NCBI RefSeq assembly: GCF_036013525.1
Contig: NZ_CP107853.1
Coordinates: 4,960,001-5,024,000 of the forward strand
Length of the DNA stretch: 64,000 nt
Direction: 5' to 3'
Source: Nonomuraea sp. NBC_00507
GTDB taxonomy: Bacteria > Actinomycetota > Actinomycetes > Streptosporangiales > Streptosporangiaceae
This document shows, piece by piece, positions 39,148 through 42,151 of the stretch. The stretch's first letter is position 1. The number at the start of each line of letters is the position of its first letter. A model generated the notes under the pieces. That model ran no database searches, was not told where the DNA came from, and was given only the letters and a program-made list of their open reading frames with translations. The position numbers were made by a program, and so were the translations under genes.

Positions 39148-40593
39148 TCAGGACACCTGCCCAGTCCGGTAGCGGTTCACATCTGGATATGCGACGTTCT
39201 CATCGGCGACTACATCGTTGGCTTCACGGCAGCTGCTGCCGGAGCCCTGGGAAGCCCGTTGCTGCGGACCTCGCGCGAGTACGTAGACGAACAGGACCGC
39301 CATGACTACTGCGCCTGCCCACATGGCCTGCTGCCAGCCGTCGACGAAGGACTCTTGGGCGGCTCGGATCAGCGCCGGCGCTTGGCCGCCGACCCTGTCG
39401 GCGGCCGCGAGGGCGTTGGCGACGCCCTCGCGGGCGGTGTCGGCGGCGTCGCCCGGCACTCCGTCGAGCCGGGAGGCGATGGCGCCGCGGTAGCCGGCGG
39501 TGAGGACCGCTCCGAGCAGTGCGACACCGAGCGCGGTGCCGAACTCCCGGGTGACGTCGTTGAGCGCGGACGCGACACCTTGACGCTCGCGCGGCATGGC
39601 GGTGGTGATGGCCTCGGTGGAGGGCGTCATCGTCAACCCCATACCGAGTCCCATGGCGAGCATGCCGGGGAGGATCGAGAGGTAGCCGCCGTCGACGGAC
39701 ACGAAGGTGGCCATGAGGACCAGCCCCGCGCCGCCCAGGAAGATCCCTGAGGTCATCGTCGAGCGGCCGCCGATGCGCGCGGCTGCCTTCGGGGCAAGGC
39801 CGGAGGCCATCATCATCAGCAGCGCCATCGGCATGAGCGCCAGGGTGGAGCGAAGGCCGGACCAGCCGAGCACCGCCTGAAAGTACGGGAAGAGGACCAC
39901 GAAGATCCCCGCCTGCACGCCGAAGACCGTCAAGAGCGACACGGAACCGCTCGCGAGACCTCGTTCGCGGAACAGGCGGACGTCGAGGAGCGGAGCCTGT
40001 CGGCGCAGCTCCCATGCCACGAATCCGACAGCGGCGATGACGCCGACGAGGAGGCTCAGGAGCGTCGTGGGCGCGGTCCAGCCCCGTTCGGGGCCCTCCT
40101 GGAGGAAGAAGACGAGCCCGACCACCGCGACCACGGACGACAACGAACCGACGGTGTCGAACCCGTGCCCTGACGGCTCACGCGAGTTCGGGATGGATCG
40201 CAGCGCCATGACGGTAGCGACGACGACGAGCACGATCGGCAGGACGAAGAGCCACCGCCAGCTCGCCAGGTCGACCAGGACGGCTGACAGGTACATCCCC
40301 AGGATGCCTCCACCGCCGGCGACGCCGGTCCACACGCCGATCGCCTTGGAACGCTCCTCGTCCGGGAAGGTCGAGGTGATGACGGCAAGGGTGACCGGCA
40401 TGATCATCGCTGCGCCTACGCCGCTCAGGAAACGCGCAGCGAGCATGATCTCCGACGACGTGGCAAGGCCGGCCGCCGCACTCGCTGTTCCGAAGACGAG
40501 CAGGCCTGCGAGCAGCACCGGCCTGCGGCCCCACCGGTCCCCCATCTCGCCGAGCGGCAGCAGCAACGCGGCCAGAGCGATGGTGTAGATGTT
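39148..40593 (-). pseudogene. DHA2-type MFS efflux gene, 3' part (interrupted)
   Basis: This part encodes 481 residues beginning NIYTIALAALLLPLGEMGDR (helix 2 and motif A of DHA2 drug efflux pumps) through the last helix and tail. It lacks the first 65 residues, which lie at 41957-42151 beyond a TnpB element. Joining the two parts gives an unbroken 546-residue protein with no frameshift, so the insertion is recent or the rest is still under selection. A TTG at 40599 could initiate a truncated protein, but helix 1 would be missing. Confidence 0.88.
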
Positions 40594-40740
40594 GGTCAAC
40601 TACCACCGGCTGAAGCCGGTGGTTTGCTCTCACGGTCCCGTCTGGCTGAAGGGAGGCCGGTAGCGTGCGGCTGGTTGACAGCAGCCCAGCCCGCAACGCC
40701 GCGTACGGCGATGTTGCAGGCCGCGATGTGGTCGGCGTGC
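40574..40740 (-). ncRNA. Predicted omega RNA of TnpB (3' tnpB end, right end and guide)
   Basis: In TnpB systems the guide RNA scaffold is made from the 3' end of tnpB and the right end of the element, and the guide is the flanking DNA just outside. Here the scaffold would end with the hairpin at 40602-40623, and the guide would begin at 40593 reading AACATCTACACCATCGCTCT. The 5' limit is arbitrary. This is inference from the family; no transcription evidence is available. Confidence 0.4.
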
Positions 40741-41956
40741 CCAGCGAGGCCACAGCCGGTGCAGACGAACCGGCCCCGGGCGGGCCGGTTCGCTCTGGAG
40801 ACGCACGCGCAGTCGGGGCAGGCCTGCGAGGTGTAGGCGGGGTCGACCAGCAGGAAGGCGACCCCGGCCCGCGCGGCCTTGTAGCGGGTGAACTCGATCA
40901 TCTGGGCGAACGCCCAGCCGTGCAGGGTGCGCCGCTGGAGCCGGTGAGCCCTTACCCGGCCACGGATGCCCTGGAGATCCTCCAGGGCGATGCCGCGGCC
41001 GGTGCGTTCGGCTTCGCGCACCACGAACTTGGAGATCTGGTGGTTGACGTCGGTCATCATCCGGTGCTCACGCCCGGACAGGCGGCGCAGCACCCGCCGC
41101 GCCGCAGGAGTGCCCTTCTTCTGCAAGCGGCGGCGTTGCCGGTACCTGCGCTCCCGCAGGCTGCGCACGTGCCCGTTGCCGTGGATCGGGCCGGGCAGGG
41201 CGGGGCCGGGCAGCACCGCGCCGTCGTTGGTGACGGCCAGGTTCGCCAGCCCTTGGTCCACCCCGAGGAAGCCGTTGACCGGCTCGCGGACTTCGGGTTT
41301 GGGCAGGGTGACGGCGACCTGCAGCAGCCACACGCCGCGCCGGTAGATCAGGTCGGCCTCGCCGAGCGGGAGCGTGTCGATGGCCTTCAAATCGTCCGGC
41401 CGCCCGATGTAGGGCACGGTGACGCGGCCGGTGGGGGTCCATAGCGACACGGTGCGGGCGTCCCGGTTCCAGCTCATCAGCCGCGCGTCGTAGGGGACCG
41501 CGCCGTGCGGGCGGAACACATGAGCCCGTTTCTTGGTGGCACGCCGGTTGGCGTACGCGCCGGCCACCCGGGCAATCGCCCGCACGGCCGCCTGCGCGGC
41601 AAGCCCGGCGACCTGGGCGCGCACCGGATAGTAGGCCAGCCGGTGCAGCTCCACCACGGCGAAGGTGCGCTGCTGCCACGCCAGCCGGGAGACGAAACTC
41701 GCCGCCTCGTTGCACACCTGCACCGCCGCCGTCAGAGCCTCGGCCTGGGTCAGAGTGGGCGCAAGCCGCAGCTGTACCACCGAGGGCAGGCCCTGCCGTT
41801 TGGCGGCGGAGCGGCGGATCGCCATCGCGCACCTCCTGTCACGAGCCCCTCACGCACCGCAGATATTACTGGCTGTGACCAATATTTTCCATACTGTTTT
41901 CGAAAGGAGGGGCTTCCTCCCGGCCCTGAAGGAACGGGTCTCCGCGCCACAAATCA
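40594..41956 (-). mobile_element. TnpB-only IS200/IS605-family (IS1341-type) element
   Basis: The ends are set by the interrupted host gene: coding sequence stops at 41957 (...TTCATC) and resumes at 40593 (AACATC...), giving about 1363 bases with a one-base ambiguity, because C could belong to either side. There is no target duplication and there are no terminal inverted repeats, as expected for this family. The right end carries a perfect 10-bp hairpin, ACCACCGGCT-GA-AGCCGGTGGT, at 40602-40623. The left end has an imperfect GC-rich fold near 41893-41945. No TnpA transposase gene is present, so mobility would need one in trans. Confidence 0.85.
40596..41825 (-). CDS. tnpB: TnpB RNA-guided nuclease
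   Basis: A 409-residue, apparently complete TnpB, relative of Cas12 nucleases. The RuvC catalytic residues are Asp190 (GVDQGLA), Glu282 (LEDLQGIR) and Asp365 (HADHIAACNIA). The zinc finger is CPDC (336-339) with CTGC (355-358). AGGAGGT is five bases upstream of ATG 41825. The stop codon lies within four bases of the right end, so the 3' end doubles as guide-RNA scaffold. The preserved active site suggests it can still cut; the matching empty site would be the uninterrupted efflux gene. Confidence 0.93.
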   Translation of the reverse strand: MAIRRSAAKRQGLPSVVQLRLAPTLTQAEALTAAVQVCNEAASFVSRLAWQQRTFAVVELHRLAYYPVRAQVAGLAAQAAVRAIARVAGAYANRRATKKRAHVFRPHGAVPYDARLMSWNRDARTVSLWTPTGRVTVPYIGRPDDLKAIDTLPLGEADLIYRRGVWLLQVAVTLPKPEVREPVNGFLGVDQGLANLAVTNDGAVLPGPALPGPIHGNGHVRSLRERRYRQRRRLQKKGTPAARRVLRRLSGREHRMMTDVNHQISKFVVREAERTGRGIALEDLQGIRGRVRAHRLQRRTLHGWAFAQMIEFTRYKAARAGVAFLLVDPAYTSQACPDCACVSRANRPARGRFVCTGCGLAGHADHIAACNIAVRGVAGWAAVNQPHATGLPSARRDRESKPPASAGGS

Positions 41957-42151
41957 GATGAACCACAAGACCTCGGTTTGCGAGGCGTCGAAAGCGACGG
42001 TCAGCCCCGGCTGGGCGACGTTCAACCCGGACGCCGAAGCGATGACCGCCATGAGCGCGATGCAGACCCCGACCAAGATCGTACGTCGTTGTCGTGGGTC
42101 GCGGATGGTCGGGTCGGGGGCTCCCGCGTCTGAGGACCGGTTCGTACTCAT
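41957..42151 (-). pseudogene. DHA2-type MFS efflux gene, 5' part (interrupted)
   Basis: ATG 42151 with AAAGGA upstream starts a 65-codon segment with transmembrane helix 1 (ILVGVCIALMAVIASASGL) ending in ASQTEVLWFI, then an in-frame TGA at the first codon of the inserted element. It continues in frame at 40593. Confidence 0.88.

Follow-up and report, generated by a model that had tools for sequence, protein, structure and literature searches.

The TnpB of ISDra2 takes a guide of about 16 nt from the right flank of its element, its target-adjacent motif (TAM) is also the insertion target of the element, and cutting of the donor joint has been proposed (PMC8612924). In the ISDra2 RNA, a pseudoknot forms between scaffold bases -6 to -2 and bases in the loop of stem 1 (PMC10097598). 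Other TnpBs process their own mRNA, and the report covering 59 TnpB orthologues describes TAMs no longer than 5 nt (PMC10278001). For the IS1341 group, elements of 1,252-1,393 bp (10 of 18) with proteins of 362-489 aa have been reported from six species (PMC9956272). Within the limited text collection that we searched, no paper joining TnpB and Nonomuraea was found, and the papers joining TnpB and TTCAT were unrelated ones (on H. pylori genotypes and S. aureus fatty acids).

Nonomuraea are soil actinomycetes. The genome of Nonomuraea sp. NBC_00507 (G000) has 12.9 Mb in two contigs, and the window analysed here, a stretch of 64,000 nt, covers positions 4,960,001-5,024,000 of contig 1. In this window, a 1,363-bp element breaks a DHA2-like MFS transporter gene, and it is a TnpB-only element of the IS1341 type in the IS200/IS605 superfamily (Table 1). 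The first-pass annotation had already called it TnpB-only; indeed tnpB is the sole gene between the left and right ends, and no Y1 transposase gene was found in the window with eight of the 15 Y1 regions of the same genome as queries.

Table 1. Coordinates of the element, its predicted RNA and the interrupted gene, as positions in the window
Feature	Position	Strand	Details	Evidence
TnpB-only element	40595..41957	-	1,363 bp; left end 41957, right end 40595	common ends of copies in other flanks; empty sites
Non-coding left end	41826..41957	-		C(T/C)GA start in most aligned copies
tnpB, RNA-guided endonuclease family	40596..41825	-	409 aa, open ORF	Pfam and NCBIfam profiles; dN/dS 0.24
Predicted omega-RNA scaffold, 3' part as modelled	40595..40730	-	overlaps tnpB end	folding, covariation, synonymous constraint
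Predicted stem-loop	40669..40686	-	5 pairs; loop carries one pseudoknot strand	3 of 5 pairs compensated; 100% of cells paired
GUCAAC, predicted pseudoknot 5' strand	40674..40679	-		99.3% of cells paired with 40595-40600
GUUGAC, predicted pseudoknot 3' strand	40595..40600	-	right end of element	GTTGAY in 22 of 23 copies; pairing
Right-end hairpin	40602..40623	-	perfect arms	both-sided changes at 5 of 9 pairs; pairing in 86.5% of cells
TTCAT, predicted TAM	41958..41962	-	outside element	13 of 17 copies; L050 empty site
Predicted guide, 20 nt	40575..40594	-	inside transporter gene; first 16 bases 40594-40579	first base beyond GTTGAY
MFS transporter gene, 5' part	41958..42151	-		orthologues
MFS transporter gene, 3' part	39148..40594	-	open frame 39148-40599	MFS_1 172.7 bits; NCBIfam; orthologues

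To see the locus in relatives, we ran a DNA search with the 3' part of the transporter gene against 54 Nonomuraea genomes, of which the own genome is one. Besides the own genome, 22 genomes gave strong orthologous loci (L065-L086), which were examined, and the other 31 gave weak matches. It turned out that the gene is uninterrupted in all orthologues reaching the site (21 of 21; the 22nd, L086, stops short of it). G075, which is listed as the same species and is 97% identical over the gene, reads unbroken TTCATCAACATC without the element. The empty site is thus directly observed, beyond mere reconstruction: the joint that the first-pass annotation had restored by removing the element exists unbroken in relatives, and the comparison with related genomes which it proposed gives an intact allele in all 21 and an ancestral interruption in none. 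G075 in turn has a copy of its own, related at 92% of residues, at another site, which is empty in G000. The two genomes differ reciprocally, and their copies are too dissimilar for one recent jump.

The ends had been placed at 40594-41956. The length of 1,363 bp stood, and the position moved by one base. The joint in the window has a C on each side, so the joint alone permits two boundary positions. Three observations place the element at 40595-41957 and the first guide base at 40594. First, the right end reads GTTGAY in 22 of 23 copies, and base 40594 just outside it varies among the 23 (9 C, 7 G, 4 T, 3 A). Second, the copy L050 from Nonomuraea sp. G32 sits after CTCAT and its right end reads GTTGAC followed by AAGCGG, while the empty counterparts of this site in G000, G070 and G065 read CTCAT followed by A(A/T)CCGG. 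The left cut therefore follows the fifth base of YTCAT (3 of the 5 loci shown are informative); the earlier phase would demand a G after CTCAT, where the empty counterparts have A, and was rejected. Third, the last base of the predicted scaffold covaries with its pseudoknot partner. A different boundary in other copies, which the first-pass annotation had named as evidence against its own reading, is present, but it differs by one base only. L050 gave the only clean second empty-site test, those for L119 and L052 being blurred by flanks that diverge near the site. G075 is probably the strain Nonomuraea sp. G32, since the flanks of L050 and of the G075 copy L120 are identical.

On the left side, copies in other flanks follow TTCAT, with the next base mostly C. 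The pentamer stands at the left end of 13 of 17 distinct copies (against a background of about 0.0005 per position in the window), and the remaining four have CTCAT, TTCGT, GCCGT and TTCAC. Of the two motifs that had been offered for the left flank, TTCAT was borne out and TTCATC was not. The element thus lies 3' of a fixed short target, and no bases are duplicated at the empty sites of the transporter gene and of L050. The 17 left ends leave aside L026, L059 and L144 (alignment short of the end), L002, L057, L060 and L128 (left end not found), the distant L124, and the duplicates L111, L120, L121, L122 and L132 together with nine further ones; the pentamer of L135 was read one base away from its projected position. 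Among the 23 right ends, alignment A1 gives 20 of 23 (row L133 being one base off) and alignment A3 all 23.

For the protein, Pfam gave TNB at 67.1 bits (cut-off 26.3) and OrfB_IS605 at 30.5, which is exactly its cut-off, and the NCBIfam guided_TnpB profile scored 175.6 against a cut-off of 100. D190, E282 and D365 lie in the expected motifs, the zinc finger C336/C339/C355/C358 is present, and these residues align with solved Cas12f/TnpB-like chains; TnpB is complete with an open frame, as had been proposed. Over 21 copies, conservation is complete for D190 and E282 (20 of 20 covering copies) and for D365, C336, C355 and C358 (21 of 21); C339 is conserved in 20 of 21. The 15 intact copies, compared in 105 pairs from tblastn matches, give a median dN/dS of 0.238, and by this measure the tnpB lineage is under purifying selection. 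AlphaFold2 on 21 sequences gave a mean pLDDT of 63.4 and a pTM of 0.45, with residues 11-170 good and RuvC mostly poor. All 14 named loci matching the TnpB query are from Nonomuraea. Two other identities were rejected by profile: an IS607 TnpB (IS607_TnpB 58.7, cut-off 350) and a CRISPR Cas12f (Cas12f2 108.1, cut-off 450).

Against shuffled sequences, the last 136 bases of the element show better folding (z -3.15). Across 23 copies, standard pairs fill 95.8% of the cells of a 45-pair structure; 11 of the 45 pairs show both-sided changes (shuffled mean 4.4; none of 500 shuffles as high), in 26 cells altogether (shuffled mean 6.9), numbers to be taken with caution since the modelled region doubles as protein-coding sequence. 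The right-end hairpin, described earlier as perfect, has indeed two perfect arms of 10 nt (40602-40611 and 40614-40623); RNAalifold, which draws no pseudoknots, favours an alternative pairing of this last hairpin. A loop further upstream contains GUCAAC, which is complementary to the terminal GUUGAY, and the outer pair of this pseudoknot is GC in 14 copies, AU in 6, GU in 3 and unpaired in none of the 23, while four of its six pairs are invariant and hence uninformative on covariation. In a 20-copy tree, three changes are needed to explain the AU state, and L053 (GC) is nested in the AU group with support of 88/87, below the starred level. Besides, synonymous diversity in tnpB is lowest in codons 351-400 (none of 2,000 permutations as low, in each half). 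Altogether, the predicted omega-RNA appears to have a covarying scaffold and an ISDra2-like pseudoknot which ends exactly at the guide. A search of the window against Rfam at gathering thresholds found nothing.

Synonymous diversity is also mildly low in codons 251-325 (about 40850-41075, around RuvC-II), outside the modelled RNA (P 0.03, 0.009 and 0.05). In AmaTnpB, the scaffold is reported to pair with the RuvC-II part of the mRNA (PMC10278001); such a pairing found no support here, where the segment at nt 825 ranked 10-32 of 42 in 15 copies.

The predicted guide is CAACATCTACACCATC(GCTC), on the minus strand and starting at 40594; that the right flank serves as guide had been proposed before, and only its start is shifted by one base. 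To look for predicted targets, we compared it with the empty orthologues. TTCAT together with all first 16 guide bases is found in 6 of 21, among them the same-species G075, where the guide mismatches fall at positions 17 and 19. Two of the 21 have TTCAT with mismatches within the 16 bases, and 13 lack TTCAT. Allowing up to three mismatches, the own genome has 34 matches to TTCAT plus 13 guide bases, and the absence of any with fewer than two mismatches fits the demand of an active nuclease. Five own-genome sites have two mismatches; these include the occupied joint, as well as two sites whose TTCAT is intact and which the nuclease might cut.

According to these results, the following explanation is proposed. 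A Nonomuraea transporter gene received an element without transposase, which inserted 3' of a TTCAT pentamer and was presumably moved by a Y1 transposase in trans. The tnpB product would be an RNA-guided nuclease, and the tnpB transcript would give, from its 3' part, an omega-RNA whose scaffold ends in GUUGAC (40595) and is followed by the guide flank CAACAUCUACACCAUC, so that the predicted RNA continues from GUUGAC into CAACAUCUACACC. The complex would recognise the empty allele by its TTCAT plus guide sequence and cut it, as ISDra2 suggests; for the empty allele, RNA-guided cutting is a well-founded prediction. By extension from ISDra2 and other TnpBs, this TnpB would cut TTCAT-CAACATCTACACCATC and so favour retention: repair from an element-bearing copy would retain the insertion after excision, or would copy the element into empty alleles. 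We regard this explanation as very likely, because of the 21 of 21 empty orthologues, the common ends, the second empty site, the TnpB profiles and the kept catalytic residues, as well as the purifying selection, the covarying scaffold, the six orthologues matching the guide and the lack of an own-genome match below two mismatches.

The same targets would also serve a lineage that spreads in Nonomuraea mainly as an RNA-guided homing element, with rare mobilisation in trans founding new sites. The nuclease of the occupied allele would then cut the matching empty allele of another strain, and recombination would copy the element in; TTCAT with 16 of 16 guide bases in G075 and five other genomes would offer such targets. 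As the main mode of spread we hold this to be unlikely.

It is also unlikely that the copy is an inactive relic, and that the insertion persists only because the strain lacks the transposase needed for excision. Broken copies do exist in relatives, with stops in L026, L054 and L056 and missing pieces in L058, L060 and L135, and the second own-genome copy (L002, G000:C1:3288927-3289674, at 3.289 Mb) is truncated and frame-broken, with its right end intact in a different flank. A matching transposase was not found either: the own genome has 15 Y1 matches, the 13 elements among them whose right ends could be compared end in the GTCAA type and not in GTTGAY, and the same eight Y1 queries gave in the 21 copy loci only an 18-residue match (E 0.007) in L051, more than 2 kb from the element. 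The studied copy, however, is intact in protein, RNA and ends, and the dN/dS over the intact copies indicates a lineage kept functional. Beyond the studied element, one right end exists in the own genome (that of the broken copy) and one in G075. Use of the guide of the broken copy in trans was considered and set aside; its best site has one mismatch, in the TAM part, over TCAT plus 12 guide bases. The own genome also holds a separate, numerous group of Y1 plus TnpB elements (L094-L103), with CGTCAA as the TnpB-side end.

As for the transporter, 65 codons from 42151 and 481 residues to 39148 add up to 546, as the first-pass annotation had calculated, and the joint is real; this is not the ancestral length, since about 925 bp of G075 (L065:2917-3841) are absent from the window near 39184, at the 3' end of the gene, where the C-terminus is altered, and three orthologues have 530 aa. 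For the label of drug efflux, confidence is moderate: an intact orthologue scores 221.8 on the NCBIfam DHA2 efflux_EmrB profile, slightly below the cut-off of 230.2. The tnpB stop TGA (40598-40596) overlaps a TTG (40599-40597) that starts an in-frame transporter remainder of 483 codons, and coupled re-initiation at this TTG is possible. This arrangement would suit a reversible switch, in which the element silences the transporter and precise excision or TTG re-initiation restores or keeps some function, benefiting the host. The remainder is still open, and the window branch has 9 non-synonymous and 5 synonymous polarised changes, the G075 branch 5 and 5. But the first 64 residues are missing from the remainder, a recent insertion would equally leave the frame open, the gene end has been changed by the separate loss of about 925 bp, and the transposase was not found, which makes the switch highly improbable. 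Even less credible is a domesticated TnpB regulating a host gene in the manner of TldR, a nuclease-dead TnpB regulator defined by loss of RuvC residues, for although the own genome has a single intact copy, D190, E282 and D365 are kept in 20, 20 and 21 covering copies, and the element lies at other places in relatives and breaks a gene here.

In conclusion, the IS1341-type insertion with a predicted guide against its own empty allele offers a natural test case for an actinomycete TnpB, with exact ends, a predicted TAM and guide, a scaffold supported by covariation and, within the same species, a genome carrying the predicted target; if active, it would yield a TTCAT-specific TnpB. The biology is as expected from known elements: the kind of element is already known, and the Nonomuraea element is new. 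It resembles ISDra2 of Deinococcus radiodurans in the size of TnpB (408 aa, against 409 aa here; PMC8612924, PMC10097598), in the predicted right-flank guide, in the predicted pentamer TAM beside the left end (TTGAT in ISDra2, TTCAT here) and in a predicted scaffold which overlaps the end of tnpB and whose last bases would pair with a loop inside a stem. It differs in lacking tnpA, in its predicted TAM and in the numbering and lengths of the stems. With the IS1341 group it shares tnpB as sole gene and the presence of left and right ends, and its 1,363 bp and 409 aa fall within the reported ranges (PMC9956272); Nonomuraea is outside the six species of that report, and here the empty site and the predicted TAM and guide are defined. 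As in AmaTnpB and the 59 orthologues, the predicted omega-RNA lies within the tnpB mRNA, with a 3' stem-loop near the guide and a TAM of at most 5 nt, whereas AmaTnpB has TCAC as TAM and an inhibitory mRNA region that is unsupported here (PMC10278001). Finally, as in the plasmid gene drive described for IS200/IS605 TnpB, the predicted guide records the insertion site and element-free copies would be the targets; the difference is that the gene hit here is chromosomal and that the empty site occurs in a strain of the same species (PMC11870625, preprint).
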